A DNA stretch of 42,686 nucleotides from a virus: the IMG/VR virus record IMGVR_UViG_3300009702_000043, positions 1 through 42,686 of that record. One strand, 5' to 3'. Under the pieces are notes generated by a model that saw nothing but the letters and a program-made list of their open reading frames with translations, was not told where the DNA came from and ran no database searches. This document shows positions 1 to 42,686 of the stretch, one piece after another (the first letter of the stretch is position 1; each line of letters starts with the position of its first letter). Position numbers and translations under genes: made by a program.

Positions 1-198
1 CAGTATGTCTTGTCCACAACCTCCAGTTCGCGGGGATCATAGATCACATAATTGAATTTATCATACCGGGGTTTCCGGCTCATGGTTCCAACAGGGTATT
101 TCACTCCATCAATTCATAATTGAATTTATCATACCGGGGTTTCCGGCTCATGGTTCCAACAGGGTATTTCACTCCATCAATCCCGGCTTCTTTGTTCA
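1..198. repeat. Contig-end overlap containing a 67-bp tandem duplication
   Basis: Positions 1-113 followed by 181-198 are identical to 42557-42686, so the contig is circular. Positions 47-113 and 115-181 are two identical 67-bp copies, giving a period of 68. The copy at the right end of the window lacks the duplication. Because 68 is not a multiple of 3, the duplication shifts the reading frame of the giant leftward gene, whereas the right-end version keeps it open. This is most simply an assembly artefact at a circular junction. Removing overlap and duplication leaves about 42,488 bp. Confidence 0.93.
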
Positions 199-3100: not shown

Positions 3101-4558
3101 TGCCAGAAATTCGGCGAGGGGAACATCCCGGTCCTGCTGGCTGTCCATATACGCGCGGGCTTCCCCCTGGGCCATACCCAATTTTCCCAGAACATCCTGG
3201 GCCACATCTGAATTCTGGAAAAGAGTTCTAAAACCTTCCGGGGTGATAAAAACACTTTGATCGGGGGAAACAATGTTCTCCAGGAACTCCTGGAATTTCT
3301 CAGGATTCCGTTCCTTCAATTTCGCAATGGCAGCGGCCTGATTCAACTGGTCCAGGCTCTTGTAAGTGCTATCAGCCCGATCTCCGGCGGAGAGATACTG
3401 AACCGGCGCGTGAAGAGCCATACCTGTGAGAAAAGCCGCGGGGAAAATATCAATGCTGTGCTCCAACGCTTTTTTGGTATCTTTACCAAGCTGATCTAAT
3501 GAAGCCCCTAGCCCTATATCCCTCGTAGCCGCGGAGAGAGGACCAAATGCGGTTGCAATCGTTCCGCCTTCCATAGCCTTGATCGTTCGTTTCGCGAGCC
3601 GAGTGAGTAGTGTTTTACCTTCTACGCCCTTCAGATATTTATCCAGGCCAACATGGGAAAGAACTTCAGAACCCATTCCAAAAAGATAAGCGGCTGTTAG
3701 AGCCTGATCATTGGATGCCCCCTCCTGAATAAGCTGGTCATACATATCCCCGGCGAAAGACGCCGCGAGGGGAATCGCTCCCCCCGCCGCGCCTAACCCA
3801 AGGTAGTGACCGAGGCCAAGGGTATTGTAGGTCCACCATTCAGGATTCTTTAACAGTTCAGGATGCTCAAGAATACCGCTTTCTTGAACCTTCTTAGAGG
3901 GCAATAGTGCTTTCTGATTCATCAGATTTGACATGACCTGAGCGTTTTTCAAAGACCACTTCTCAGCAGCACCGGCGGCTTTAGACCAACCATCAAAAAG
4001 AAAGTGACCGCCTGACATTTTGGTTGCCATGTCTGCCAAATACTTTACAGTCCCACTCAGAAGACCCGCCGTATCATAGATTGATTTGCCAACAAAAGGG
4101 CCAAATCGAATTAACTGTTGACCCGCGGGCCTGATCACCCCTTGCCAGGCGTCTTTGATCTGCTTTTCCCCCTCTTTGGGGTCGATGTTATACACATTCT
4201 TCAAGACTTTCTCAACCCCGGACAGGGCGGGGATATCATCGTGGGCCTGGACAAAATTCTCAGGCTTCTTCAAAAATGCCGTGGTTTTTGGAGCATCAGG
4301 TTTAAATTTCACCGAAGCTTTTGTCGCGGCTTCTTTCAAAAGGTCAGGGTTCCTCAACAACGAATCAACCGGGAGGCCCGTCTCTTTCGACATGCGTTCC
4401 GCTTTAGCCACATTATCCGGGTCGGAGTCTTTTGCCAGTTTCCACAAAAGCTCATTATCCTCGTCGCCTGGAGTGGGAGTCAGAGGTTTCCATCCGTCCT
4501 CACTCGGGGCCACGGGGACTTGTCTCGGGTTTTCTTTTTCCTGTTCAATCCAGGGCAT
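101..4558 (-). CDS. Giant polyvalent internal virion protein, N-terminal part (continues at 42686)
   Basis: This is the first ~1481 residues of a protein of about 2733 aa; the apparent stop at 101 is created by the 68-bp duplication. The gene starts at ATG 4558, overlapping the upstream stop by one base (TAATG), and lies where T7-like phages encode the ejected gp16-type protein. Residues ~1-110 look like a disordered or helical polyvalent-associated region. A Gly/Ala-rich, possibly membrane-active stretch lies near 245-295. A first ADP-ribosyltransferase-like segment begins near residue 765 (FHWSS ... HGRGIKG). A second begins near 1000 (FWHGTGADFQHFS ... FSAGHYV) and ends at the contig join with AGIDGVKYP ... 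NYVIYDP, the usual end of ART-PolyVal-like domains. Domain names are from pattern memory, not a search. The protein probably enters the host with the DNA; catalysis is unproven. Confidence 0.85.
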   Translation of the reverse strand: MPWIEQEKENPRQVPVAPSEDGWKPLTPTPGDEDNELLWKLAKDSDPDNVAKAERMSKETGLPVDSLLRNPDLLKEAATKASVKFKPDAPKTTAFLKKPENFVQAHDDIPALSGVEKVLKNVYNIDPKEGEKQIKDAWQGVIRPAGQQLIRFGPFVGKSIYDTAGLLSGTVKYLADMATKMSGGHFLFDGWSKAAGAAEKWSLKNAQVMSNLMNQKALLPSKKVQESGILEHPELLKNPEWWTYNTLGLGHYLGLGAAGGAIPLAASFAGDMYDQLIQEGASNDQALTAAYLFGMGSEVLSHVGLDKYLKGVEGKTLLTRLAKRTIKAMEGGTIATAFGPLSAATRDIGLGASLDQLGKDTKKALEHSIDIFPAAFLTGMALHAPVQYLSAGDRADSTYKSLDQLNQAAAIAKLKERNPEKFQEFLENIVSPDQSVFITPEGFRTLFQNSDVAQDVLGKLGMAQGEARAYMDSQQDRDVPLAEFLAKLNPDEIKLLQPHTKFNPSDISYAEAQNNEHVEDYQRVQQVLNDTYFNRLKERERFRTEVSNAYDPEYADAITRLVDRWSLNFPEDTDIYKKLQVTKDPTIVEDKGAEAFAQNFSVRVANTFDEQAKLHEENGGSTFDANGRDLGGQPFLAFSLFKPLEAVTEEPVTPESLKKYYLDHLNIFQKYPETTLGTWTDPETGKTYYDISILAPRDKMDESLEFAKQAKQLEIFDLQTLESHKTGYNGSEGDTPDLSVDEWMKLYYDHFPSAQKTLSQMALTPVNGKVTAFHWSSEPNLTTIDPSQHGRGIKGAESKRKKDDPEHWVDRSYYGLNGYSREPGLGPHKYTVELDADRMYDYTQDPDGLLEKTREIVKKDPFANFASVYEKLIKDAGYQGYYVDTPSSGPVAAVFEKIKPEGHTLEETFNQEAFRSLPPEEIANVINDLYSNVDLIYNGNVDLGDESGSLHSFIIQGDSKANGEMISVHDPNNVFSVMQEVKEAFHQAQDEPMPRKDVRRLVFWHGTGADFQHFSDEALRSGTGGMVFSAGHYVTEYDPVSKYYLHVTGRFFYDGIEFTPDQLRTVDAAKDLLTENGFSEEEAEIAGRLLSYIAMRRDNNIKPSKTMLKEAIDHWLGPIRMGVGNIEKALKAKDATNVDYWKERLVKEKANLARYEKEFKGVASRIKTRRIQYKTVLRPGEKTWLNWYDTTPDELVAKINHALERRNLPKIRTAFNPSGGKVLGKELEVALNDFFNELPDGILKTPEADFFRIDPQFDWANFEYAEENYDTVRQVEEENADEITKMRSEGASDEEVNNFVDMLLRSDYGEIYDTGMIYPEIKGEESVGAEDKYMSSRFLNGYNGQIRVFEDGRIEASVLFPGDGVEENVGVFTAFNEARDEVENYIKKEIGGWVRWDNKAQEGTKISPQDMNREFKLEYSGKQIYEKIQDILTKNPLVKKEFGRRSDVAASKFLNKEAGIDGVKYPVGTMSRKPRYDKFNYELME

Positions 4559-6204
4559 TATTTAGCACCCCATGTATAAAGTTTTCCGCCTTCTTCTTTC
4601 ACCCACCGTTGATTTTTCTCATCCCAGTGAATATTTGCGGGAGGATTATCCGGGTCAAAAGGAATATTTGTGTATTTTGCTCTTTCTTTGGGAGTGAGGG
4701 CAAATTCATATTTTTTGGTATCTCCCCACCAATGCTTATGCAAAACAACCTCTTTCATCATCTCATCAAGAATACCCTGAACCTGGTTTATGGTTCGCTC
4801 ATCTTTCGGAATTTCATCCAGGCGCTTATCAAATTCCTTAAAAAACAAAAATCGTTTTTGAGACGTGTCCACATCTTTTTTGTCCGCTGGGAACCCGATC
4901 GCCTGAAGAGCCTGGTCTCCCATCTTGTAAAAAGATCGTGACTTTGTTATGTGATTTGATTCCTTTTCCCGAGTCTGCTCATCAATCAACTGCTTATACA
5001 CTGGATCTGAAAGCTTGTCCCGGTAATCTCGGAGATCAATTTTTACAAATTTCTCAGGAGATAGGAGTTTCAAATCATAGTAGGCATCATAATCTGTCTT
5101 GACCTTTCCACCATTCAATGCCCGCGCCCGGACAACACTTATCAAAGTGTTCTGTTTTGTGGCTGGGAGCCCGCTAGTCCGAATCATCTTTATGGCCAAA
5201 TCAGGATTCTGAAAATTGGATATCTCCTGATTTATTTCATCAAACGCTTGCTGCTCCGCCTGTTTTTTAATCTCAGCGTTCAGCCTTCGCCGGAAAGTGT
5301 ATGCTTTTCTAACTTCGCTCCGAACAATCGGATCTTTGATTTGTTCGACCAATTTCGACCCCATCGTAATATCGTCGTGACTTTTTTGGACTATCTCTTG
5401 AGTAGTCTTCTCAACTTTTGCAGCTAACGCCGCGGTTTTTAAAGAATCTTCAGCTTTAAGCTGATATGTGCCCAACATATTCTTTTTTACGGATTTGTAG
5501 TACGCCTGGGCAGCTTCCGCATCAGACAGGGCATATTTTTCAGTAACCCCCAAATAATACCTGGACATGTAATCCCGGTACACCAAATCCTTTTCTTTTT
5601 GAGAAGCCCCCGGCAATAGATCATCCGTTGCGATCTTCATTTGCTGGGCCGTGGCTTTCGCACTTGTCGGGTCCGTATAGTTTGCAATCCCATCTTGAAG
5701 AACCGCATCAGCCATGGATTTTGCAGAATCATGTTTCCATCTGAGCGTTTCCGCCCGCTCATAGTTCCCAATTACATCCGCGGTGGATATCCTCCGAGAA
5801 AGAGCCAGGGGCTCAAAAAGCCTTCGCTGGTTGTCATTCTTCAGGAGCTTATTATAATTCGTAGTGAGTTTATCGATCTCATCCTGGGCCTTTTTGGTTA
5901 AACCCATTGCATTCTCACCTTTTTGAGATTGATATTGTTCTTTAAGACCTCTCACATCATCCGTATATTTTTTATACAGATCGCGAACATAGCTCTTGTC
6001 CTGATCATCCTTGGTATCCTTCGCAACCTGGAGAGTGAAATTCTCTATGGTTTTACCAAGATTTCCAAGATTCTGCGCGGCTTGCCCTTCCGCTTGTGTT
6101 GCCTCACCCGCAGCGCTAAGAAGGCCCCCGTAAGTCAATTTCCCACGGAATGAAGGCCGAACCCCTGGAAGTGTTTCAGTCTTTGCCTGTTCTATCTGAG
6201 CCAT
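4558..6204 (-). CDS. Internal virion protein, T7 gp15-like position
   Basis: A 548-aa, almost entirely helical, charged protein with long coiled-coil-like stretches rich in K, D, E and Q and no membrane segment. It lies between a gp14-like protein and the giant gp16-like protein, the order gp14-gp15-gp16 of the T7 ejection apparatus. I therefore infer that it is an internal core or ejection-channel protein in the mature virion. The start at ATG 6204 is supported by an upstream AGGAG; the stop overlaps the next start by one base, suggesting translational coupling. No enzymatic motif is visible. Sequence similarity to T7 gp15 itself is not obvious, so the call rests on gene order, length and composition. 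Confidence 0.7.
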   Translation of the reverse strand: MAQIEQAKTETLPGVRPSFRGKLTYGGLLSAAGEATQAEGQAAQNLGNLGKTIENFTLQVAKDTKDDQDKSYVRDLYKKYTDDVRGLKEQYQSQKGENAMGLTKKAQDEIDKLTTNYNKLLKNDNQRRLFEPLALSRRISTADVIGNYERAETLRWKHDSAKSMADAVLQDGIANYTDPTSAKATAQQMKIATDDLLPGASQKEKDLVYRDYMSRYYLGVTEKYALSDAEAAQAYYKSVKKNMLGTYQLKAEDSLKTAALAAKVEKTTQEIVQKSHDDITMGSKLVEQIKDPIVRSEVRKAYTFRRRLNAEIKKQAEQQAFDEINQEISNFQNPDLAIKMIRTSGLPATKQNTLISVVRARALNGGKVKTDYDAYYDLKLLSPEKFVKIDLRDYRDKLSDPVYKQLIDEQTREKESNHITKSRSFYKMGDQALQAIGFPADKKDVDTSQKRFLFFKEFDKRLDEIPKDERTINQVQGILDEMMKEVVLHKHWWGDTKKYEFALTPKERAKYTNIPFDPDNPPANIHWDEKNQRWVKEEGGKLYTWGAK

Positions 6205-6216
6205 TTTTCTTTACTC

Positions 6217-6762
6217 CTAGCTAAATAAACCAGCGCCGTATGCTTTTTTCCCGGCCCCAACAAGAGTGTTTGCCATCCCGAGATACATAGAAGTCCTGGA
6301 CGCGTTAATTGCTTCCTTATGCTGCCCCTCAGCAAGCTTATAAATCTTCGCCTGTTTCCGGTGCTGCTTCGCTTCTTTATACAACCCCCAAGCTTGCAAC
6401 TCCGAATCATGGTTCAAATTCAGCATATCCGCAGCCACAACCCCAGCACTCTGCATTTTCAGTTCTGTAGCCGTAGCTCCACCAACATTAACTCCCATAG
6501 CGGCCATTTCTGCAAGTTGCCGCCCCTGGAGTTGCCGTCCTTCGACCCCTCGCTTCCGAGCCGCGGCTTGCCCTTTTCTCAAAACTTCCTGAGCCTGAGT
6601 GACAGCGTAGCTTGCATTCTCATACTCCATGTTTGCTTTTTCAATGTCAACAGCCCGTTCAGTGTTGTAATATGATTTTTTGGCATCAAAAGCTTTTTTC
6701 TGGCTATACATTTGTATAGCAGTTGAAGCAACCAAACTGCCGACAACCATCGCCGTACCCAT
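6217..6762 (-). CDS. Internal virion protein, T7 gp14-like
   Basis: A 181-aa protein with a short hydrophobic N-terminus (GTAMVVGSLVASTAIQ), then an Ala/Gln/Lys-rich helical body (repeated KAN, QAQE, RKG, ARKRG patterns) and a Gly/Ala-rich tail. This is the typical look of the smallest internal virion protein of T7-like podoviruses, which inserts into the outer membrane during ejection. The ATG at 6762 is chosen because a near-perfect AGGAGG lies 5-10 bases upstream; the longer open frame to 6822 has no comparable site. It is tightly spaced between the gp13-like and gp15-like genes. Confidence 0.72.
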   Translation of the reverse strand: MGTAMVVGSLVASTAIQMYSQKKAFDAKKSYYNTERAVDIEKANMEYENASYAVTQAQEVLRKGQAAARKRGVEGRQLQGRQLAEMAAMGVNVGGATATELKMQSAGVVAADMLNLNHDSELQAWGLYKEAKQHRKQAKIYKLAEGQHKEAINASRTSMYLGMANTLVGAGKKAYGAGLFS

Positions 6763-6763
6763 C

Positions 6764-7255
6764 TTATTTCCTCCTGGGGTAAATATCTCTATGCGTATAA
6801 AACCGGGTAAATGGGGCATCAAAGGGGCCGAACTTGCCCGTTTTCCCCTCTGTAAATCCCGCCCATTTCATCCACATGATACTCGCTTTATACTCCGCCC
6901 AAACAAAATTTTCCAAATATTCATAGTGGTCAAGCATGATATTGATATATTTTGGGGTAGCCTTAACAAAACTCCATTTCGCTTTTTCCATCAGCGGACT
7001 GCCCAGAAACCAAGGAACAGCTTGGTCAATTTTTAGCATACTTCGCGGTGCACACCCAAAAATAGCCGCTGGTTCATTGTCCACGTAGAAAATCCAGCGG
7101 AGATCTTCCGGCGTTAAAATCCAGCACTGTTTCACATAATACCGAGGGTCGCTTCCAAAAGTCAAATAGACCTCTTCTGAATCCTCTTTCCGCAAATTAT
7201 CCGCAACGTGCCATGCGTCAATCGTGCGGCCTGAATTTATTTTACAAGTCCGCAA
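6764..7255 (-). CDS. T7 gp13-like virion assembly protein
   Basis: A 163-aa protein with a GNAT-like layout: an aromatic-rich middle containing IFGCAPRS, then VPWFLGSPLM, and ending with LENFVWAEYKASIMWMKWAGF. That last pattern (name or neighbour strand, then W.KW.GF) is characteristic of the phage Gp13-like family (PF11090-type) and of degenerate N-acetyltransferase folds in phages. In T7, gp13 is needed for virion assembly. The start is TTG at 7255 with a GAGG eight bases upstream, and it overlaps the tail tube B stop by 14 bases. No ATG lies near the start of the conserved part. Confidence 0.7.
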   Translation of the reverse strand: MRTCKINSGRTIDAWHVADNLRKEDSEEVYLTFGSDPRYYVKQCWILTPEDLRWIFYVDNEPAAIFGCAPRSMLKIDQAVPWFLGSPLMEKAKWSFVKATPKYINIMLDHYEYLENFVWAEYKASIMWMKWAGFTEGKTGKFGPFDAPFTRFYTHRDIYPRRK

Positions 7256-12030: not shown

Positions 12031-12663
12031 CTATTTCAACTCAGGACTGTTAGGGTAAAAATCTTTAGGGGTAATTTCTTTTGGTCCCCCGGCGGGTTGT
12101 CCACCTGCTAATCGGCTTCCCCCGAGGTTCTTCCCCACATTATACAAAAAACGAATCACTTCGGGATTGTCACCCAATCCAGAGACATCAAGCAACTCAG
12201 TCAGTTCCGGGGTGCCGAAAGTGTTAAGCGCCTTGACAGCGGTGGCCACGGTCTTTTCAAGATTGTGCCCTCCGATTTCAGAATCACTTTTAACTTCAGT
12301 AACCCAATCCTCCCGAAGCTTCTCAACGCCTTGCTTCGTTTCCAAGATGGTATCTTCTACCATCTTCATGCCCATATCAAACAGATTTTGAGCGGCATCG
12401 TTTGAGAGTCCGCTCTCTTTTGCAACCGAATAAAAACTTTCAAGTTGCTCTTCCGCGTGGGTAAAACCCTCCGTGAATTTTATTTCGTACTTTTCTGGAG
12501 CACCTTGAGGCTCCCCACCTTGAGGTTCGCCCTGGGGTTCATTTTGTGGTTCGCCCTGGGGTTCATTCTGAGGATCACCCTGGGGTTCGTTTTGTGGTTC
12601 GCCCTGGGGTTCATTCTGAGGATCACCCTGGGGTTCGTTTTGTCCCAAAATAGTCTCAGGCAT
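12031..12663 (-). CDS. Capsid scaffolding protein with QNEPQG(D/E)P repeats
   Basis: A 210-aa acidic protein located between a small basic gene and the major capsid gene, the normal scaffold position. Residues 8-47 are five tandem octapeptides QNEPQG(D/E)P, disordered and Pro/Gln-rich. Residues ~60-200 are helical (FTHAEEQLESFYSVAKESGLS, MGMKMVEDTIL, FGTPELTELLDVSGLGDNPEVIRFLYNVGKN), a layout common in phage scaffold and capsid-assembly proteins. The C-terminus PKDFYPNSPELK is also frequent in this family. It starts at ATG 12663 with a one-base TAATG overlap with the preceding gene. Confidence 0.8.
   Translation of the reverse strand: MPETILGQNEPQGDPQNEPQGEPQNEPQGDPQNEPQGEPQNEPQGEPQGGEPQGAPEKYEIKFTEGFTHAEEQLESFYSVAKESGLSNDAAQNLFDMGMKMVEDTILETKQGVEKLREDWVTEVKSDSEIGGHNLEKTVATAVKALNTFGTPELTELLDVSGLGDNPEVIRFLYNVGKNLGGSRLAGGQPAGGPKEITPKDFYPNSPELK
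12523..12642 (-). repeat. 24-bp tandem repeat inside the scaffold gene
   Basis: Five in-frame copies of a 24-bp unit encode QNEPQG(D/E)P. The nucleotide sequence alternates in a 48-bp higher-order unit: the 48 bases from 12561 repeat from 12609 for about 35 bases without change. This indicates recent expansion and a locus likely to vary in copy number. Confidence 0.85.
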
Positions 12664-20038: not shown

Positions 20039-20902
20039 TTATTTCCCCAAATAACGCTGTAGGCCCCCAGCCCACGCCGCGTAAGAATACTCAAGGTCTC
20101 CTGATTCATTAGACATCGCTGCTCGGCCAACTCCAATAAGGACTGGTTTTCCTTTATGGAATACAAAAATGGCTGACCCAGAGTCCCCTGGTTGCATCTC
20201 CATTTTCATGGTGAAGTCCCACATGGAAAACCACGGGAGCTTATCCTCACCTCTACAAGAGATTGCCCGCTTCGCAACAACCTTGCCCCACACGATCGTG
20301 AGGTCATTCGTCATCGTCCCAGCTTTATCTCTCTTATGAACTACCATCGCAATTACATCGCCCACGGTAAACTGAGCTCTCTCAGGATTCAATCCAGCTT
20401 TAAAAGGAATCAAGAAATTGTTGGTCTGAAGCTTTAGAATTGCAATGTCCCGGTTGGTATCAATCATGTATATTTGTGCAAGCACCGGGCTGCCCTCAGA
20501 ATCAAACACAAGAATATATCTTGACAAAACCTCCCGCGGTCTGGTCCTGAATATTGAAATCATACTTGTCCTCACATCCACGGTGTCGGGTTCAACCACA
20601 TGCGCGGCGGTAATAACATACCCGGAAGCAATAACTGTCCCGGAGCCTTCGATATCAAAAGCGCATAATCCCTCAATCCATCGATATTCCCCGCTCTTTA
20701 AATCAGGATATAAAGCAGAAGCAATCCCTATTGTCTTGACAGTCACAAAAGTCTCATAAGCCAAAGGATCAAGATGAAAGTCCGCTGGCTTCTGCTGGTC
20801 ATAGGCGTGAACCCTGGAGCAATAGCCCATCAGTGCCAAAAGAACTCCAAAGATAAAAACCCCCATAATATCAAAAATCACATGATGTTGTTTGCGTTTC
20901 AT
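20039..20902 (-). CDS. Secreted trypsin-like serine protease
   Basis: A 287-aa protein with an N-terminal hydrophobic segment (residues ~9-28) and a plausible signal-peptidase site after VHA33. The complete chymotrypsin-fold triad follows: H101 in VITAAHVVE, D152 in NRDIAILKL and S241 in MQPGDSGSAIF. No PDZ domain follows, so it is not a full HtrA. It would act in the periplasm or at the membrane. It lies in the same leftward transcript as the M15 endolysin and holin, and AGGGG precedes ATG 20902. Possible roles are degradation of envelope proteins during lysis, superinfection control or cleavage of a secreted target. None is shown by the sequence. An exported trypsin-like enzyme is unusual for a phage of this type. 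Confidence 0.85.
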   Translation of the reverse strand: MKRKQHHVIFDIMGVFIFGVLLALMGYCSRVHAYDQQKPADFHLDPLAYETFVTVKTIGIASALYPDLKSGEYRWIEGLCAFDIEGSGTVIASGYVITAAHVVEPDTVDVRTSMISIFRTRPREVLSRYILVFDSEGSPVLAQIYMIDTNRDIAILKLQTNNFLIPFKAGLNPERAQFTVGDVIAMVVHKRDKAGTMTNDLTIVWGKVVAKRAISCRGEDKLPWFSMWDFTMKMEMQPGDSGSAIFVFHKGKPVLIGVGRAAMSNESGDLEYSYAAWAGGLQRYLGK

Positions 20903-28401: not shown

Positions 28402-29574
28402 ATGAAGAAAGAAGACATGAAAAAACGATTGATAAACGAAGTCCGAGACATGGCAGCACAGTTGAAGACGGACAAGATCACCATTCACAAGTTTGCTCGG
28501 ACGTATCACCATGACCGAAGACTTGTATGGCGGCATTTTGGAACGTGGGAAAATCTCAAAAAGGCCGCTGGTATTGAGTCAAAAAAGATAACACTGGAAA
28601 GTACCGGAGCGGAATTGAAATCCCACTGGAAAGACATCATTGTAAAGGCCATGAAACAAAAGGCGCAGACAATGTATGACCTCCGCGATCTTTGTCACAC
28701 TTATCCTTCAGAGATTAGGAAAATCCTGGAGAGTTTGAATACTCACCCAGGGTTTCTTCATAAAGTGGATGGGGGTACAGACCTTTATCAGATTATTGGG
28801 ACTGGTTCCATGGGGCCGGAGAATCAGGAAGTTCGAGTCCATGAAACCAAGTTCGGGCTGATAGGTGACACCCACCTGGGTTCCAAGTTTCAACAAATGA
28901 CTTACCTTTGGGACTTTTATGAATATTGTGCGAAGCAGGGAATTAAGACGGTCCTCCACGCGGGCGATATGACGGACGGGAACGGTTATCTGTATCGTGG
29001 TCAACAGTTCGAGATGTTCCTCCATGGGTTTCGGGAGCAACGGGAGTACGTGATCGAAAACTATCCAAAGGTGGATGGGATAAAAACCTATGTGATCATG
29101 GGAAACCATGATGAGTCCTGGATTAAATCCGCGGACATTAACATTGTAGAACAGATCGCCCGGGAGCGAGAGGACATTGAATATATCGGGCGTCTGGGGG
29201 CCTATGCCTTTATTGAAAAAGCCCGGGCCTATCTCATCCATCCGATCGGCGGGTCGGCGTATGCCCAGTCATACAAGGCCCAGAAGTTTATTGAGTCCTT
29301 CAGTTCGGAGAACAAACCCCAGCTATTCTTTCTGGGGCATTGGCATTTCGCTTTACAGGGATTTCTGAGAAACATCCACTATATGTTGACCGGATGTTTT
29401 CAGGCTCAGACACCATACGAGTTGGTCCGGGGCCTGCACCCTGCAATCGGCGGCTGGATTTTGAACTTCGATTTGGATAAGGATGGGTACAGCATTAAGA
29501 ATCTTGAAACGATTTTTCGGCCTTACTATCGAATAATCAAAAAAGACTACAGGAGGGATGGGTCATGGGTGTAA
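28402..29574 (+). CDS. Metallophosphoesterase with HNH-repeat-like DNA-binding N-terminus
   Basis: A 390-aa protein. Residues ~1-60 (TDKITIHKFARTYHHDRRLVWRHFGTWENLKKAAGI) resemble the HNH_repeat DNA-binding module often attached to homing enzymes. A winged-helix-like segment follows. The C-terminal calcineurin-like phosphoesterase has all metal motifs: GDTHLG (D156, H158), GDMTDG (D189), GNHD (H236, D237) and GHWH (H313, H315). The layout is similar to SbcD/Mre11-type nucleases but with a different N-terminus and no SbcC partner nearby. Likely a DNA nuclease or phosphatase in replication or recombination. Confidence 0.8.
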   Translation: MKKEDMKKRLINEVRDMAAQLKTDKITIHKFARTYHHDRRLVWRHFGTWENLKKAAGIESKKITLESTGAELKSHWKDIIVKAMKQKAQTMYDLRDLCHTYPSEIRKILESLNTHPGFLHKVDGGTDLYQIIGTGSMGPENQEVRVHETKFGLIGDTHLGSKFQQMTYLWDFYEYCAKQGIKTVLHAGDMTDGNGYLYRGQQFEMFLHGFREQREYVIENYPKVDGIKTYVIMGNHDESWIKSADINIVEQIAREREDIEYIGRLGAYAFIEKARAYLIHPIGGSAYAQSYKAQKFIESFSSENKPQLFFLGHWHFALQGFLRNIHYMLTGCFQAQTPYELVRGLHPAIGGWILNFDLDKDGYSIKNLETIFRPYYRIIKKDYRRDGSWV

Positions 29575-34352: not shown

Positions 34353-34620
34353 ATATTTTGATAATGGTCTTGAGGACGATTGGATTGTGGAACAAGTTCA
34401 AGATGAGAATGCCCGGCAAATTGCCAAATGGGGGTATCAAACTCGCACTGCATTTGAGTGGCTAACATACACCACGGAAGAACTTGGGGAGTTGGCACAA
34501 GCAATCTCTGAGTATGAATACAGAGAAGGATCAGCGGATGATGTTATTAGAGAAGCTATTCACACGGCAACATTGGCTCTTAAAATCGCAGCTATGTATG
34601 AAGACCAGGAGCAGCCATGA
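34342..34620 (+). CDS. MazG-like nucleotide pyrophosphohydrolase
   Basis: A 92-aa all-alpha protein. The core TYTTEELGELAQAISEYEY matches the ExxE metal motif of MazG/dUTPase-like pyrophosphohydrolases, and the second half (DDVIREAIHTATLALKIAAM) supplies the second acidic pair. Short phage versions usually cleave non-canonical or excess NTPs. GGAGG precedes ATG 34342, and its stop overlaps the polymerase start (ATGA), giving coupled expression with replication genes. Confidence 0.72.
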   Translation: MPNEYFDNGLEDDWIVEQVQDENARQIAKWGYQTRTAFEWLTYTTEELGELAQAISEYEYREGSADDVIREAIHTATLALKIAAMYEDQEQP

Positions 34621-36665
34621 AAAAAGTCGTGATCGACTTTGAGACCAGAAGTGCGTGTGATATCCGCAAACATGGCCATTGGGCTTATGCACAACATCCA
34701 ACCACTGAAGTTGTGTGTTGTTCGTACGCCTTATCATCCTCTGAGTTCCGGGTCACCCATATTTGGATTGCCCCCAAATTTAGGAACGAGGATACCGCAG
34801 ATTATCTGAAACGACAGGGATTTAAGTATGACAAGGGAGAGATCCCCTTGTTCTGTAAAAACATTGAGAAGTACCACTTTGTAGCACACAACGCTGGATT
34901 CGAGTATGCGATGTGGAAGTACTCTTGCCCAACATGGCCTGAAGTTCCACCGATAGAACGCTGGTCGGATACTGCTGCCAGGGGCGCATTCCTGGGCCTC
35001 CCTCGAGACCTGGACCGCATGAGCCGGGTCCTTCGGTTGACTACCCAGAAAGATCTTGAGGGTGCCAGGTTAATGTTGAAGTTGACAAAACCCCGGAAAG
35101 CCAGGAAAGCGGAGAAGGCTAGCTATGAAGACTGGGAAGAAAGATTGTTTTGGTATGAGGATGCCAAAGAATATAACCGCTGGTTTCTATACTGCTGCAC
35201 CGACGTAGAGACTGAAAGGCTCCTTGATCAATTCTTGCCGGAACTCCCCGAAGATGAATTGGAGATGTGGCAAGTTGACCAAAAAATTAACGAGCGGGGG
35301 ATTCGCATTGATCGGGAGATGGTTCAAAAGATCGTGGGATTTATCGAGGAATATAAAATCCTTCTGAACAAGAAATTCAGCGAATTGACTAACCATGAAA
35401 TTGAAACGGCAAGTCAAACCCAGAAACTCCTGGAGTGGATTAACAAACAGGGGGTGCAGTTGGATTTCCTTACCGCGGAGTCAATTCGCACAACCCTGGA
35501 AGGACATGCAATCCCTGGTAAAGTTCGGCAGGTCTTACAAATCCGCCGGGAGATTGCCCGGACTTCGACTTCAAAATATGAAGCCATGCTCAATTACACT
35601 TCTTCCAAGGATGATCGCGCCCGGGGAATCCTCATGTATTACGGCGCTCCGGCGACAGGCCGATGGGCAGGCCGAGGAATCCAACCACAAAACCTTCCGC
35701 GAAAAAGCCCGGGGGCAGTGGACCTGGTAGCCGCGTTTCTCAAGAACTGTAAGACGGTAACAGAACTTCAGATTCTCGTTGGAAACCCCCTCAAGTTCTT
35801 TTCATATTGTGTCAGGATGATGTTGATTCCGACCGAGGGGAAGAAGTTTGCGAATGCTGATTACTCTTCTATAGAGGCCCGTCTCGTCGCCTGGTATGCA
35901 AACCAGAAGGAAGTTTTAAACGCTTGGAAAGATGGGAAGGATATCTATAAGATCGCAGCGTCGCAGATATATGGGAAGTCCTATGAGGACATAACCAAGG
36001 ATGAGAGATTTGTCGGGAAAGTGGCGGTATTAGCCCTGGGGTACCAAGGCGCCCAGAATGCTTTTGCATCCATGGCCAAGGGGTATGGCGTCGAGATATC
36101 GGAGAAGTTTGCAAAATACACAGTTCGCAAATGGCGAGAGAAAAATCAGGAAGTAGTAAGATGCTGGAAGAGCGTGGAAACAGCTGCAAAGAAAGCTGTT
36201 CTTTCTCAAGATAAAACTCAGTACCCAGCCCTGAGTGGCCGAGTATTTTTTCAAAAGCGGAAAGTACCTGTCTCCCGTAGGGATATCACTTGGCTGATGT
36301 GTGGTCTCCCTTCAGGCCGAGTCCTGTACTACTTCGAGCCTGAACTGAACGAGGATACCCAGGTGACTTATATGGGAATTAACTCATACACGAAGAAGTG
36401 GGAACGGTTGGAGACCTATGGAGGAAAATTATTTGAGAACATAGTGCAGGCAACCGCCAGGGATATATTGGCCTATGCAATCAAGAATCTTGAAAGGGTC
36501 GGCTATCCAGTGGTTACTCATATCCATGATGAAGTGATCTGCGAGGTTTATCCGGATACTAATTTTCAGACCTTCATGGATTGCTTCACCACATGCCCGC
36601 CATTCATGAAAAATTTTCCATTGTCCGGAGAAGGGAAACTGCAAAATCGCTATGAAAAAAGTTAA
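34617..36665 (+). CDS. DNA polymerase, family A with 3'-5' exonuclease
   Basis: A 682-aa replicative polymerase. The N-terminal DEDD exonuclease has VVIDFETRS (D7, E9), FVAHNAGFEYAMW and YCCTDVETERLL. The polymerase domain has the GRWAGRGIQPQNLPR segment, motif A NADYSSIEARLVAW (D415), motif B GKVAVLALGYQGAQ, and motif C HIHDEVI (H637, D638). All catalytic residues are present. The start ATG 34617 overlaps the MazG-like stop. It works with the prim-pol/helicase and DUF2815 SSB. Confidence 0.93.
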   Translation: MKKVVIDFETRSACDIRKHGHWAYAQHPTTEVVCCSYALSSSEFRVTHIWIAPKFRNEDTADYLKRQGFKYDKGEIPLFCKNIEKYHFVAHNAGFEYAMWKYSCPTWPEVPPIERWSDTAARGAFLGLPRDLDRMSRVLRLTTQKDLEGARLMLKLTKPRKARKAEKASYEDWEERLFWYEDAKEYNRWFLYCCTDVETERLLDQFLPELPEDELEMWQVDQKINERGIRIDREMVQKIVGFIEEYKILLNKKFSELTNHEIETASQTQKLLEWINKQGVQLDFLTAESIRTTLEGHAIPGKVRQVLQIRREIARTSTSKYEAMLNYTSSKDDRARGILMYYGAPATGRWAGRGIQPQNLPRKSPGAVDLVAAFLKNCKTVTELQILVGNPLKFFSYCVRMMLIPTEGKKFANADYSSIEARLVAWYANQKEVLNAWKDGKDIYKIAASQIYGKSYEDITKDERFVGKVAVLALGYQGAQNAFASMAKGYGVEISEKFAKYTVRKWREKNQEVVRCWKSVETAAKKAVLSQDKTQYPALSGRVFFQKRKVPVSRRDITWLMCGLPSGRVLYYFEPELNEDTQVTYMGINSYTKKWERLETYGGKLFENIVQATARDILAYAIKNLERVGYPVVTHIHDEVICEVYPDTNFQTFMDCFTTCPPFMKNFPLSGEGKLQNRYEKS

Positions 36666-37131
36666 GCGAAAATTGACTGAGGATGATCTGCTTTGGGTGA
36701 AGGCGACTGTTATCAAGATAATGAAAAGCCGCCGGTGGCCATGGACCGACTTCGACGATGTACTCCAGGAAGCGTACACAGCCTTAGTGGAAGCCTCCCA
36801 TGTGTACGACAAAGAGCGGGGGATTCCCTTCCGGGCATTCGCTTATTCTTGTGTCAAGCACCGACTGAACAACCACATCAAACGGATTCGACGCTGGGGT
36901 AAAATTCAGTGCCGGGAATTGAATGAGGATACAGACCATATCAATGACCGTGAAGAATTACAAATTGAATTGAGGGATTTGATCACGAAGAAATTGGATA
37001 TTCTTTCTGAGAGTCAGCGGAAACGATTGCTTGATTTGACCCTGGAGCCAGGTCCCCGGCCTATGCGCCGGAAGGATGCCCGGTTCCTCTTGTACGTGAG
37101 GAACCGGGTCCGGGAAAAGTTTAAAGAATAG
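36652..37131 (+). CDS. Sigma-70-like transcription factor
   Basis: A 159-aa protein with a recognisable sigma region 2: DFDDVLQEAYTALVEASHVYD, then RGIPFRAFAYSCVKHRLNNH and a basic region. This corresponds to the core-binding (2.2) and -10-recognition parts. The C-terminal ~50 residues (LDILSESQRKRLLDLTLEPG, DARFLLYVRNRVREK) could be a degenerate region 4. It starts inside the polymerase 3' end and closes the rightward arm, ending two bases from the oppositely oriented fibre gene. It likely redirects host RNA polymerase to later phage promoters; this is inference. Confidence 0.75.
   Translation: MKKVKRKLTEDDLLWVKATVIKIMKSRRWPWTDFDDVLQEAYTALVEASHVYDKERGIPFRAFAYSCVKHRLNNHIKRIRRWGKIQCRELNEDTDHINDREELQIELRDLITKKLDILSESQRKRLLDLTLEPGPRPMRRKDARFLLYVRNRVREKFKE
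37079..37108. other. 11-bp perfect hairpin at the convergent gene junction
   Basis: CCCGGTTCCTC (37079-37089) pairs with GAGGAACCGGG (37098-37108) around an 8-nt loop, inside the last codons of the sigma-like gene and about 25 bases from the convergent stop codons. There is no U-tract on either strand. It may slow or end transcription from both arms. Confidence 0.6.
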
Positions 37132-37132
37132 A

Positions 37133-38845
37133 CTACATTCCATCGGGAAAGTACCAGCCAGCGGTATATATGATAGCACTGTGCAAACCCGTGAGGCTAT
37201 GAACTATTTGTATCCTTTGAGAATCATCGGCGATTACCGGTATGGTATTTGTAGACCTATTTGCGTTATTTGAATCAGTCGACCCGACATGATGCCCATC
37301 AGTACCAGTTTGTCCGTATGTTCTCCAGAAAAGCATTGCAGCAGAGGTGTCCCCAGCAGCATAAGAATAAAAAGTTGTTGATATTTTTCTGCACATGCCA
37401 GGGGCAGTCAGAGTAACTGTAACCCACGTAGTATCAATATCGGTAGCGGGTAAGTCCTCAATATCATCCGCGTAAGTAACAAGATCACCGTCTTGGAAAA
37501 ATTCTAGAATATTATCTGGAGTTGAATTGGCTCGGACAGCAAATATACACCTGTCATCGCCATTCATCCATTGGCGATAAGTATTATTCCAAGTGGGCGC
37601 AGTTGTTGACCAGATAAGCTCAGAGGCTGTAACTGGAATGCCGGATGCAATAGCAGAATAGTCAAGATAGAGATAATACCATGTATCTGCGATCGGGCTT
37701 CCAATGGCATTTGAAGTTAATTGATTGCTCCAATAACAATATTTGTCCTTACACATATATGCCCCGGCACCAACAAGGACGGTATACGCCGCTGTTCCAC
37801 CGTTATAAGTAAACTGTGGCCTTTCAAGATAGCCTCTGGCTAATTGACCTCGATATGTTTCAATATCTTTGTTCGCCGCATTGATCGTGGTTCTCGCCGC
37901 GACTGCATCGGCATCATCCAGAAGAGTTTTGATAAAAGTCGAAACTCCGAGAGTAGTCAAAGCAGCCGAGGCATCTGCATCATCCAGAATTGTTTTTGCA
38001 AAACTGGAGATAATGAGCCCGGAAGTGCTGTCAGTCACACCGGCTGCAAACCATTCAGAAAAAATTTGATCAACCAGAGGGGTACCACTAACTGTCCCGC
38101 TCCCGCTGAGAATTTCGTATTTGCCAGCAATGATCGAGCAGTTAAGAGTAAGATTATTTGAGGTTGCTAACAAAACAGAAGCACCTTCCAGCCATACCAA
38201 TAAGATGTTACTTGGAATTGTAAGTGCTCCGGCATTTATTGTTGGCGTGGTATCAATAAGAACGGTTGCATGGCCTGAGCCTATATCAGAAACCATCTGA
38301 TTTAAACTGTTGCCATGATTCTGAATCGAATCCCACGCCGGGTCAATAACCGCGGTTGCAGCGTAAGTGGCCATTTTTGCGCCCGTGGCGTCAAAACCGA
38401 TAGCTCTCCCAGCGGCGGGAACCACCTGGGTATCAATGGTCCCACTGTAGCCTTCATCAACTTTAATTGACCGGTCAAGTGCATCACTCTCATCCTGGTC
38501 AATACGCCTGGATTTGTCAACCATGGACTCCAGGGGGTCGAGGAAATAGGCTCCCACATTGGAAAGATCGGTACTTTGGTCCAGGGATTCTACTCGCATG
38601 ATGAGGATTTTGAGTCCAGTAGCAAGTGCGGACCCGCTTATCGGATAAGTTACATCACCCCCATTATTGCCTGGATTTAAGCTGACAGTATAGTCTGTGT
38701 CCTTTGTTTGTAGGGTTTTGACCCCAGAATCAATAATATATACCTCCAGCCCGTCATCATCTTCGACCTGGAAATCAAAAGAGAAAACGGTAGTTGAGCC
38801 ATTTCCATCATAAATTACCCGTGGAGATTTTTCCGCAACAGTCAT
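37133..38845 (-). CDS. Tail fibre/spike protein
   Basis: A 570-aa protein. The N-terminus (RVIYDGNGSTTVFSFDFQVE, YFLDPLESMVDKSRRIDQDE) resembles the T7 gp17-type tail-binding domain. Residues ~150-260 (LTIPSNILLVWLEGA, QIFSEWFAAG) look like the start of a pectate-lyase-like beta-helix spike. Two related copies of a T(I/L)LDDADA ... TT element follow near residues 280-320. The C-terminal region is Gly/Ser/Tyr-rich and probably binds the receptor. It is the last gene of the leftward arm and starts with a one-base overlap with the giant gene. Confidence 0.82.
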   Translation of the reverse strand: MTVAEKSPRVIYDGNGSTTVFSFDFQVEDDDGLEVYIIDSGVKTLQTKDTDYTVSLNPGNNGGDVTYPISGSALATGLKILIMRVESLDQSTDLSNVGAYFLDPLESMVDKSRRIDQDESDALDRSIKVDEGYSGTIDTQVVPAAGRAIGFDATGAKMATYAATAVIDPAWDSIQNHGNSLNQMVSDIGSGHATVLIDTTPTINAGALTIPSNILLVWLEGASVLLATSNNLTLNCSIIAGKYEILSGSGTVSGTPLVDQIFSEWFAAGVTDSTSGLIISSFAKTILDDADASAALTTLGVSTFIKTLLDDADAVAARTTINAANKDIETYRGQLARGYLERPQFTYNGGTAAYTVLVGAGAYMCKDKYCYWSNQLTSNAIGSPIADTWYYLYLDYSAIASGIPVTASELIWSTTAPTWNNTYRQWMNGDDRCIFAVRANSTPDNILEFFQDGDLVTYADDIEDLPATDIDTTWVTVTLTAPGMCRKISTTFYSYAAGDTSAAMLFWRTYGQTGTDGHHVGSTDSNNANRSTNTIPVIADDSQRIQIVHSLTGLHSAIIYTAGWYFPDGM

Positions 38846-41800
38846 TATCTTTTACCCCCTGCTATGAAAGCACTTGCCTTTCCGGTTTGTTTATATCCCT
38901 TTTTACCTCTTTGATACTTTCTAACGATCTGCGAAATTGGAACCCTGGAAATGAAGGAAGCATATTCCAACATCGCCCAAAACGCATCCTTGGTTATTTT
39001 CTCAATTCCCTTGTATTTGCCAACATTCTTAACATCCTTCACCACTCGCTTGCCTGAAGAGATTAACTCATTCGCCGTTGAGAGGGCCGGAATGCTGGCT
39101 CCATAATTCCCAAACCAGGACCCGACTACCGGGATTACAACTCCGAGAAGCTGTGATGCTGTTTTTTCAATGATCTTTTTTGTGTCCTCTATACTACTTA
39201 TTGTCCCGCCCTGTAGAATATGAAACAAACTTACCATGCCAAGGGCAGGTAGAAGTTGATCAAACATCAGATGGTCGGCGTATTTGGTCGCCCCGATCTT
39301 TCCACTTCTCCAGGCTCTCCAGTAGGTTCGAGCTCTTTGCTGGTATTTTCCAAGGGTATATGTGGAAAACATCGAGAGGAATAATTTCCATCCGCCTTCA
39401 CGCTGCAATCGGACAAGATCAATGGTTTGCGCCGACGGCTGGGTTTCCCTCACAATCCGGTCCGCGTAATTTATTGAATCTTTTTCCGGGCGCCCCTCGT
39501 GTATTGCCTTTTCATACGCCGTTGTCCAGATGGGCAACACCGCGGCAATATCCATGGCGCGGATTGGAGCAAATCCAATCTTTACCACATCGTTCCAATT
39601 ATAGACTTTATTATCCCCAACAAACCATTTCTTAGCATCAGGGTCCAGTTTGGAGAACAAATCCCCAAATTCACGGTCAAAACTCCGGGTCATACGGTCT
39701 CGCATGTATGGAGACTTCTGAAGCATGAAATTATATCTACCTTTGAGTGCCAAAGGATTCAGATAGGTTTTAATGACTCCTGCTGTAAGCCTAGTCTTGC
39801 CAAGCTCCACCGCTGCATTCGGAAGGGAGAATACCTGTTTCAGCGCAACGGAAGGGTTGAACGCCAGGATATAGGCGGTTACCAGGTTCTTCAGCTTTAG
39901 CATCATTTGATCCCCGGGGCGATCTACTGTGACAAGTTCAGGTCGGGCGACGTAATGAAGCGCTGGTCGGAGATTCTCGTAGACCTCGGGACCCAGGTGC
40001 TTGATCACTGCATCCCGGAAGGCCGGTTCCCGGATAAGCATATCAACATCCCGGAGGGCCTCCGCGTGAGTTGCGTAATGAATCGCGTCTACAATGTGCC
40101 GAAGCTGAGGCTGAAGTGATAACGATAATGGGTAAACAGTCTTAGCCACACGGGGGTTATTGAATCGAGATTTAGCTGCTGGTGTCTGGAATATACTCTC
40201 AGTTCGTTCCCATACATCATCTTTGGCATAAAGTTCTGTAATTCTTGAAGTCTTTGCAGACCGGCGAGCCAATTCGCGATCGTAGGCCACTGGGGTGTAG
40301 CCCCCACGGTAAACACCAAATGCTGTTCTAAAAGGTTTTGGAGGGATTGAAGCAATTTCATATCCATTTTTTCTCCTGTTGACTTTGTTTACCAGTTTAA
40401 AAAGTTCGTCATTGGTGTCCCAAATCTTTTGAATCGCGTCCCATTCTTTCTTGTTCGGTAACTCCATAAGAAAATCAAAATGCTCAGGAGTCATATCCGG
40501 GAAACCGGTAAAGATCCTGCTCATATTGGATTCGTTGCCCCGGTTCAAGGCTAAGGCAAAGATCTGTTCGGGGGTCCAGAAATCTTGGCCATTGTTCCTG
40601 AAGACCTCGGGCACCGGCGCTTCTTTAAAAATCATTTTAGAGCCATACTTCTTCGCTAAACGTTTTTGGCCTTTCAAGAGGACGTTGAAAAAAGGAATGG
40701 ACTTCGGGTAAAATTCCTTCAGCAACTCCGCTTTTTGGTCGATCGCTTCCTCGAGTCTTTGGGTTGTGTATTTTTCTGTTAGAGAAAGCTCCCCTTTGGG
40801 ACCCAGGCTTTTGTATCCGCCCATGGCCTTCATCACAAAATTGAAGGAATCCAGATAAGAATACAGTTTTTGCGCGGTATCCTGGACTCGGCGGAGGAAC
40901 TTTCTCCGTTTCGAGATGGGAGTTTTTTCCTTCAGGGTGGCGGATTCGTCGGCCATTGCAGTCCCAACAGCCGTCACGTCCTCGCCCGTGGAAAGAGTCT
41001 TTTCTTTTTTCCCATGCTTGTTCAAATATCGTAGCAGGCCATACACATCCCGGAGTTGCCCCATTGTCAGATCACGATAATTGATCGGTTTCTGTAATAG
41101 AGAAGTATCAAAGAAGTAGGGGTCCCGGTCAACGGCTCCCTCCGCGGCGAGCAACTCATCAAGAGATTTAACTTCATCAACGGAGAGACTCGGGACTTTG
41201 TTCACATCGACCAGCCCGAAGTTCTTTGCAATCTCTACAATATGGTATTTCCAGGATAAATCCAAGGGTTCGGTTTTTCGGACCTTTGATATTTGTTTTG
41301 CCAGTCTGATCGTTTTCTCCAGGAACCGGCGGTTCTTGACCGCTTCCCCGGCCTGGGTATAAGCCAAGCGAAGTTGGTGATTGGCCTCAGCCGCCTTCCC
41401 GAGATTTCGCTTCAGGAGTGCTTCGCGCTGGCTCCGCTGGAGTTTCTTAAAAGTTCGCATAAAGAGATCATGGCGAATTGCCCGACGAACCGGCTCACCT
41501 TCAAGTGCTGATTTTGCAACGTCCTTGAAAATTCGACGGTTAATCACAGCTTCTTTTACACCACCCCGGAGGTACCGGTCGATACTTTCCATATATGCGT
41601 GGTACTCGGGGGAGTCCAGGATAAAATCCATGACCTTGAATTTCGCGTCATTTTCCGCTTTTTTCTGTTCCAGGTAATAATCGACCCGCTCTTTTTTGGT
41701 GCTCCCGGATTTCAGAATTTCGACTAGCTCTATCGGGGTTTTGTCAAAGGCCAAGGCCATATCCTGGACCGTGAACATGGAATGCTTGGCAATATACTTC

Positions 41801-42686
41801 GAGGGGATCTTCGCCAGGGCATCCTTTCCAAATATTTCGATAACGCTCTCTTTGTCCAGTTTTCCTTTTTCCAAGGTGTCCAGGATTTGATAGATCTCAT
41901 CATTCCCCCGGGCGTAGTTTGTGGCCTCTTTCCGCCATTGTTTCAGCTTTCCACGGTAATCCTTATTCCGGGCGCGGAAGAGCTTGTCCTCGGCTTTCTT
42001 GATCGCGCTGTTATAGAGGCTTAGAAGAATATTCCGATCGCCAGGGAGAACCCCTATCGCATCCAGTTCTTCCTTCGTTTTCGGGAGTATTTCTTCCATT
42101 TTGGCAAATTCATTGGTCTCCGCTTCAATCCCAAAAAACTTATCAAAGACCTGCTCCACTTCAGGATTTAGCTCAACCTTATACTGCTGCTTGAATAATT
42201 TCACACTAGAGTAGATCTGTTTCAGCCATTGGTGAAATCTTTGGGCCAAGCCTGAAATATCCTTGGGGACCTGTTTCCCCTCCAGGAAATAGAGCTCCAG
42301 GCCCCGAGCGAACTTCTCATGGTGGCCTGTACGAATTAAATCCCCTTCTTCCAACCCGAGCCATTTCCGAAGAGAATTGTAATCCTGGGTCATTTCGGGA
42401 GTTGCAAGTTCGGATTTTACAAGCTGTTCGAGTTCGTTCAGAAACACATGGCCAAGTTCGTGCAGAAGGGTGGAAGGATTCGCGTCCTTGAACAATTTTA
42501 CATAATACCCGGTATCATGGATTGTGACTGAACCAAGCTTTTTTTGTCCTTCCTGCCAGTATGTCTTGTCCACAACCTCCAGTTCGCGGGGATCATAGAT
42601 CACATAATTGAATTTATCATACCGGGGTTTCCGGCTCATGGTTCCAACAGGGTATTTCACTCCATCAATCCCGGCTTCTTTGTTCA
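38845..42686 (-). CDS. Giant polyvalent internal virion protein, C-terminal part
   Basis: This is the continuation of the gene at the left end; the frame is open to 42686, and an internal GTG at 42660 only looks like a start. It supplies the last ~1252 of about 2733 residues. After the ART-like end (VIYDPRELEVV) there is a zinc-metallopeptidase motif LHELGHVFLNE (about residue 1527 of the joined protein) with a downstream HHEKFARGLE carrying a likely third ligand. Long helical regions follow. The C-terminal ~270 residues (YADRIVRETQPSAQTID, WKLFLSMFSTYTLGKYQQRA, then hydrophobic segments) resemble the LPD38-type end of phage polyvalent proteins. It stops at 38845, overlapping the fibre start. 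Confidence 0.86.
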   Translation of the reverse strand, partial: NKEAGIDGVKYPVGTMSRKPRYDKFNYVIYDPRELEVVDKTYWQEGQKKLGSVTIHDTGYYVKLFKDANPSTLLHELGHVFLNELEQLVKSELATPEMTQDYNSLRKWLGLEEGDLIRTGHHEKFARGLELYFLEGKQVPKDISGLAQRFHQWLKQIYSSVKLFKQQYKVELNPEVEQVFDKFFGIEAETNEFAKMEEILPKTKEELDAIGVLPGDRNILLSLYNSAIKKAEDKLFRARNKDYRGKLKQWRKEATNYARGNDEIYQILDTLEKGKLDKESVIEIFGKDALAKIPSKYIAKHSMFTVQDMALAFDKTPIELVEILKSGSTKKERVDYYLEQKKAENDAKFKVMDFILDSPEYHAYMESIDRYLRGGVKEAVINRRIFKDVAKSALEGEPVRRAIRHDLFMRTFKKLQRSQREALLKRNLGKAAEANHQLRLAYTQAGEAVKNRRFLEKTIRLAKQISKVRKTEPLDLSWKYHIVEIAKNFGLVDVNKVPSLSVDEVKSLDELLAAEGAVDRDPYFFDTSLLQKPINYRDLTMGQLRDVYGLLRYLNKHGKKEKTLSTGEDVTAVGTAMADESATLKEKTPISKRRKFLRRVQDTAQKLYSYLDSFNFVMKAMGGYKSLGPKGELSLTEKYTTQRLEEAIDQKAELLKEFYPKSIPFFNVLLKGQKRLAKKYGSKMIFKEAPVPEVFRNNGQDFWTPEQIFALALNRGNESNMSRIFTGFPDMTPEHFDFLMELPNKKEWDAIQKIWDTNDELFKLVNKVNRRKNGYEIASIPPKPFRTAFGVYRGGYTPVAYDRELARRSAKTSRITELYAKDDVWERTESIFQTPAAKSRFNNPRVAKTVYPLSLSLQPQLRHIVDAIHYATHAEALRDVDMLIREPAFRDAVIKHLGPEVYENLRPALHYVARPELVTVDRPGDQMMLKLKNLVTAYILAFNPSVALKQVFSLPNAAVELGKTRLTAGVIKTYLNPLALKGRYNFMLQKSPYMRDRMTRSFDREFGDLFSKLDPDAKKWFVGDNKVYNWNDVVKIGFAPIRAMDIAAVLPIWTTAYEKAIHEGRPEKDSINYADRIVRETQPSAQTIDLVRLQREGGWKLFLSMFSTYTLGKYQQRARTYWRAWRSGKIGATKYADHLMFDQLLPALGMVSLFHILQGGTISSIEDTKKIIEKTASQLLGVVIPVVGSWFGNYGASIPALSTANELISSGKRVVKDVKNVGKYKGIEKITKDAFWAMLEYASFISRVPISQIVRKYQRGKKGYKQTGKASAFIAGGKR
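42557..42686. repeat. Right-hand copy of the contig overlap
   Basis: These 130 bases are identical to positions 1-113 plus 182-198 without the 68-bp duplication. This copy keeps the giant gene open and is therefore taken as the correct version of the junction. Confidence 0.93.

Follow-up and report, generated by a model that had tools for sequence, protein, structure and literature searches.

The window, a viral contig of 42,686 nucleotides (IMG/VR record IMGVR_UViG_3300009702_000043), carries a long reading frame on the minus strand at each end. This locus raises the question of whether the two frames belong to one giant protein and, if so, what such a protein might do. The original prediction was a single polyvalent virion protein of about 2733 aa, split by the contig ends and carrying several enzymes.

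By exact-repeat comparison, an 84-bp sequence common to both contig ends was detected (115–198 and 42603–42686). The head was also repeated in the tail (1–113 identical to 42557–42669), and within the head 47–113 was identical to 115–181, a tandem duplication with a shift of 68 bp. Since 68 is not divisible by 3, this repeat breaks the reading frame, and the deposited contig therefore shows a frame of 1485 aa, stopping at 101, and an open-ended frame of 1279 aa, still open at 42684. The contig represents a circle whose start is damaged, bases 1–114 having arisen artefactually during assembly. When bases 1–114 were dropped and 42686 was linked to 199, the circular genome gave one open frame of 2733 aa on the minus strand, from an ATG at 4558 to a stop at 38845. 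The predicted joining of frames 4558–182 and 42686–38845 thus stood, with the boundary at 182 corrected, the head part being better read to 116. The elements of the join are as follows.

1–114, no strand: artefactual contig head, recognised by exact repeats; source of the frame-breaking 68-bp tandem duplication
115–198, no strand: 84-bp terminal overlap, the circular join; relatives are contiguous across it
116–4558, minus strand: residues 1–1481 of the joined protein (frame and join)
38845–42603, minus strand: residues 1482–2733 of the joined protein and stop codon (frame and join)

The contig as deposited reads as two separate proteins, the 68-bp duplication being real, the first protein ending at 101 and the second starting near 42660, where there is a GTG. 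This reading is almost certainly wrong. In its tail, the contig itself carried the 68-bp stretch unduplicated, intact and in frame. Both halves were matched in order by phrog_9880, a phage family of 2231 aa (positions 300–677 by the N half, E 2e-19, and then 935–2097 by the C half, E 3e-123). Eleven relatives aligned without a break through residue 1481/1482, the position of the join (E 4e-12 to 1e-27). Every phage relative examined was a single gene: the 12 extracted from an annotated phage collection were each one intact gene of 1974–4012 aa, in the same slot wherever the neighbourhood was fetched. These four independent lines indicated that the join was right. Two separate proteins would also cost the second ART-like region (ART2) its last strand, NYVIYDP, which straddles the junction, and D1485, which lies beyond it. 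The 2733-aa protein is a single chain, and nothing but the contig ends divides it.

This one chain combined unrelated biochemistries (LPD22, an ART fold, ART-PolyVal and a zincin), and its gene lay among late/virion genes, adjoined by gp14-like and tail fibre genes and with portal, capsid and tail genes upstream. The polyvalent-type architecture that had been predicted was thereby recovered, including both ART-like regions, at about residues 762–912 (ART1) and 1001–1490 (ART2). All features listed here are on the minus strand.

4193–4438, minus strand: LPD22 domain, residues 41–122 (PF18834, E 1.1e-13, 51.7 bits, above the curated cut-off of 28.6)
2864–3391, minus strand: conserved N-terminal chassis region, about residues 390–565 (blastp to many relatives, including L023, L017, L071 and BPP-1)
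1823–2275, minus strand: ART1, an ART-fold domain outside Pfam, residues 762–912, with conserved H774 (alignment A5, AlphaFold, Foldseek)
1379–1558, minus strand: N-part of ART2, ART-PolyVal family, residues 1001–1060, with H1005 and Y1033 (PF18760 below cut-off; family HMM)
269–1378, minus strand: insert inside ART2, about 370 aa, residues 1061–1430 (interval separating the two HMM segments of ART2)
116–271, minus strand: C-part of ART2, first piece, residues 1430–1481 (family HMM segment 1327–1488)
42577–42603, minus strand: C-part of ART2, second piece beyond the join, residues 1482–1490 (D1485 at 42592–42594)
42247–42534, minus strand: zincin (CLCA_X-type) metallopeptidase core, residues 1505–1600
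38848–42246, minus strand: conserved all-helical C-terminal region, residues 1601–2733 (alignments A2/A6; model mean pLDDT 80)
39091–39270, minus strand: hydrophobic C-terminal segments, residues 2593–2652 (hydropathy)

ART2, which is interrupted by the insert, scored below the Pfam cut-off of 31.2 bits for PF18760 (20.1 and 22.0 bits, E 0.0012 and 0.0003). Long inserts at ART2 were present in other relatives too. With a family HMM from which the window sequence had been left out, residues 1001–1053 scored 20.2 bits (E 3e-8) and residues 1327–1488 scored 12.8 bits, the shuffle maximum being 6.5. Alignment to this HMM placed the H-Y-D residues, named for the ART-PolyVal/Tox-ART-HYD2 clade by Iyer et al. 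(PMC5512222), at H1005 (strand 1), Y1033 (strand 2) and D1485 (strand 5). In the ART-PolyVal family the first was kept in 34/34 sequences, the second in 24/34 and the third, as D or E, in 21/29. By supplying D1485, the join completed the third catalytic position of ART2.

ART1 matched no Pfam family. Its relatives were found at 28 IMG/VR loci and within big proteins encoded by L035, L072, L078, L089, DC33 and two cyanophages; none was found in plasmids. PDB sequence searches with ART1 and with the C half of the protein gave no match for either. An AlphaFold model of ART1 (pLDDT 82, most of the core 85–96) was compared with the PDB by Foldseek, and the anti-CRISPR protein AcrIF11 (6kyf) was at the top (probability 0.95, E 5.8e-3), followed by MbcT and then mostly by tankyrases and PARPs, each of low probability; E-values were modest throughout. 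Against viral models, the ART1 model matched further polyvalent proteins of large size and entries named as polyvalent ARTs. The match to ART-fold enzymes that AlphaFold had been expected to reveal was thus obtained for ART1. In alignment A5, H774 was invariant and an aromatic residue stood in strand 2, with no clearly conserved acid assignable in the last strand as the third catalytic residue. PBECR domains occur in some relatives, and a PBECR identity for ART1 was rejected, as Pfam detected no PBECR and Foldseek gave ART-fold enzymes. Judged from its model, ART1 is a predicted member of an ART-fold clade without a Pfam model, and is the one mildly novel element of the protein. AcrIF11, an ADP-ribosyltransferase, has the closest solved fold, yet shares only 13% identity with ART1; moreover, it is a small expressed anti-CRISPR protein, whereas ART1 is a domain of a putatively injected giant protein.

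The predicted HELGH zinc peptidase was confirmed at residues 1529–1533. HELGH, E1577 and E1584 were kept in every covering sequence among 91–93 aligned relatives, the HExxH motif itself in 91/91. The pattern used to fetch the IMG/VR set included E1584 and not HExxH, and the phage-record set was fetched without a pattern, so the HExxH figure was not built in. In the structure model, the HExxH helix (28–48, model numbering) and another helix, which bears the glutamates (77–93), both followed a beta hairpin; the same core, an HExxH helix and a Glu in a second helix, was described for polyvalent MPTases (PMC5512222). The MPTase-PolyVal profile (PF18818) gave no match. The zincin aligned to residues 700–1000 of Bbp10, a founding seed of the CLCA_X metallopeptidase family, of which the consensus is HExxHxxxD (PMC3650047). 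It reads HELGHVFLN, with Asn where the consensus has Asp, and most relatives in alignment A2 have Glu at this position. The CLCA_X-type label is therefore given by homology to the Bbp10 seed, the zincin not being a motif-complete member.

The C-terminal ~1100 aa were helical in the model and conserved across the family, and 86 of 93 proteins had a hydrophobic C-terminal segment of a similar kind. Comparison of the C-terminal model with solved structures gave no match, nor was any solved ejection protein matched. Of the predicted "hydrophobic LPD38-like end", the hydrophobic end was present, whereas LPD38 (PF18857) had no Pfam match in the window, with control genomes silent as well, and was absent among the families of 11 relatives.

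The genes adjoining the 2733-aa protein were the following.

4558–6204, minus strand: 548-aa protein of the gp15/lysozyme slot (PHROG 10475, N-part only)
6217–6822, minus strand: T7 gp14-like internal virion protein (phrog_418, E 1.7e-18; PF24072 just below cut-off)
37133–38845, minus strand: tail fibre/tail protein (phrog_1640, E 6.9e-23)

The gene order (gp11-like, gp12-like, gp14-like, gp15/lysozyme slot, 2733-aa protein, tail fibre) was the same in BPP-1 and its relatives, and by synteny the gene for the 2733-aa protein occupies the slot of BPP-1 bbp10. The capsid protein of the window was 56% identical to BPP-1 Bbp17, and a search of genome contigs with it found no relative. T7 gp16 carries an SLT domain. 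Like the window protein, it is very large and encoded by the last internal-virion-protein gene after a gp14-like gene, the slot of T7-like podoviruses in which the original prediction had placed the protein; unlike in T7 gp16, SLT was not found in the window protein, and the two had no sequence or structure match. The likeness to T7 gp16 is thus an analogy of gene position only. Where SLT was present in the BPP-1 group, it was mostly in the preceding gene, e.g. BPP-1 bbp11, and in one relative it was inside the big protein instead. Pfam detected no SLT in the 548-aa gp15-slot protein of the window, and it was also absent from those of vir555 (566 aa) and Vibrio PS25B (543 aa); that of L023 was similarly short (540 aa).

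Elsewhere in the window were a trypsin-like serine protease whose N-terminal part includes a hydrophobic stretch and which is not expected in a small podovirus (20039–20902, minus strand, PF13365, E 4e-11), and a small sigma-70 region 2 protein (36652–37131, plus strand, E 3.5e-10) directly after the family A DNA polymerase gene (34617–36665). A metallophosphoesterase (28402–29574, plus strand) contained a repeat associated with homing endonucleases (HNH_repeat, just below cut-off), and the scaffold-slot protein (12031–12663, minus strand) had at its beginning an extended series of NEPQGEPQ/NEPQGDPQ-type repeats.

The 2733-aa protein had relatives in 41 records of phages and in at least 592 stretches of IMG/VR. 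When IMG/VR was scanned with the C half as a single protein it gave no match; queried with an alignment, it gave relatives. Homology that was colinear along most of the chain, together with the shared slot, indicated membership of the phrog_9880/Bbp10 family. BPP-1 Bbp10 and the other phrog_9880 relatives (Pseudomonas AF gp16, Caulobacter Jess A, vir555 and DC33) had the slot, LPD22, the zincin and the helical C-terminus in common with the window protein, at about 20–25% identity, and differed in cargo, Bbp10 having PBECR1 in place of the ARTs. Among 72 scanned N-terminal regions or whole relatives, LPD22 was detected in 65 (10/11, 32/36 and 23/25) and ART-PolyVal in 22. Alternative cargo comprised PBECR1, PBECR3, PBECR5, MuF_C, GGDEF, GNAT, RadC, SLT, LPD1, LPD3, LPD5 and LPD23. 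From these sequence comparisons, the family is predicted to consist of a fixed chassis (LPD22, zincin and helical tail) and, placed between LPD22 and zincin, cargo that can be exchanged; in the window this cargo is two ARTs.

The original prediction had called this combination unusual, which did not hold. ART-PolyVal together with ART1 and the zincin occurred in L035, L072 and Limnohabitans phage DC33, and two copies of ART-PolyVal with the zincin in seven further loci (L016, L057, L059, L071, L073, L074 and L090), so the domain combination is recurrent. Multiple ARTs per polyvalent protein, up to 12, had already been described (PMC5512222). The polyvalent proteins of Iyer et al. (2017; PMC5512222) likewise combine LPD, ART(s) and MPTase in a single large chain encoded among late virion genes; the window protein differs in ART1, of the clade without a Pfam model. 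Two records among the relatives deserve mention. vir555 (L008, BK063671.1), a virus assigned to Methanomicrobiales, had a BPP-1-type virion module, a capsid protein 56% identical to that of the window and an ART-zincin big protein, with no SLT detected. DC33 (L014, PQ492659.1) has Inoviridae in its taxonomy line, but has a 39-kb circular genome with a podovirus-type big protein, and is probably misclassified.

We consider it likely that the 2733-aa protein serves a BPP-1-like podovirus as its polyvalent ejection protein of the bbp10 type and acts as proposed here. Beyond the single frame, domain identities, ART2 and zincin catalytic positions, gene slot and cargo swapping established above, we infer a course of events based on the arguments published for polyvalent proteins being injected and processed by MPTases (PMC5512222) and on analogy with T4 Alt and T7-type ejection proteins. 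T4 Alt, a virion-carried ART delivered with the DNA, is the functional model, although it belongs to the R-S-E clade whereas ART2 is H-Y-D. The 2733-aa protein would most likely be packaged in the head alongside the gp14- and gp15-slot proteins, and would exit ahead of or with the DNA. Its helical and hydrophobic chassis may help to conduct DNA across the envelope. Its entry into the cell together with the viral DNA is probable, and it would bring in two ADP-ribosylating enzymes, both predicted, as well as a zinc protease. The ARTs would reach the cytoplasm and modify target host proteins in an NAD-dependent manner, favouring early infection, and the zincin, directly after the cargo, may cut the chain and so free or activate the cargo. 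No published virion proteomics of bbp10-type proteins was found in the literature consulted, and mass spectrometry of BPP-1 covered only two capsid bands.

The protein might instead be mainly a structural ejection or tunnel protein, its ART-like regions being inactive leftovers or structural modules. The chassis is indeed better conserved than the cargo, ART1 has no obvious third catalytic acid and ART2 is split by its long insert, but ART2 retains H-Y-D, with the His in every family member, and the repeated replacement of the cargo by other enzyme domains is as expected for selected enzyme functions, so we regard a mainly structural role as unlikely. Rather more plausible, though still the less probable course, is that protein and cargo are as proposed and the zincin does not cleave its own chain, processing other virion proteins before packaging or attacking a host protein. 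It is kept whatever the cargo, even where no cargo was recognised, and of the precedents, the N4 virion RNAP with its MPTase is packaged uncut and cleavage of P1 DdrB precedes its packaging (PMC5512222); its position directly after swappable cargo, on the other hand, fits cargo release. The preferred reading remains a polyvalent ejection protein whose zincin may release its enzymes. A bolder version, in which ART1 founds an uncatalogued ART-fold clade of virion-delivered enzymes structurally closest to AcrIF11 and these podoviruses would bring in a ready-made, zincin-released ADP-ribosylating counter-defence enzyme before gene expression, is very unlikely as a whole.

The largest gene of a BPP-1-like phage had thus been hidden by an assembly break, and its 2733-aa product adds a well-supported example of the polyvalent proteins already described. 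The bbp10 slot, usually annotated as "hypothetical", "lysin" or "crystallin motif", appears to be a chassis with exchangeable enzyme cargo before an invariant protease. If the proposed delivery is true, this slot would be a place for finding new host-modifying and counter-defence enzymes, with the ART1 clade a concrete candidate.
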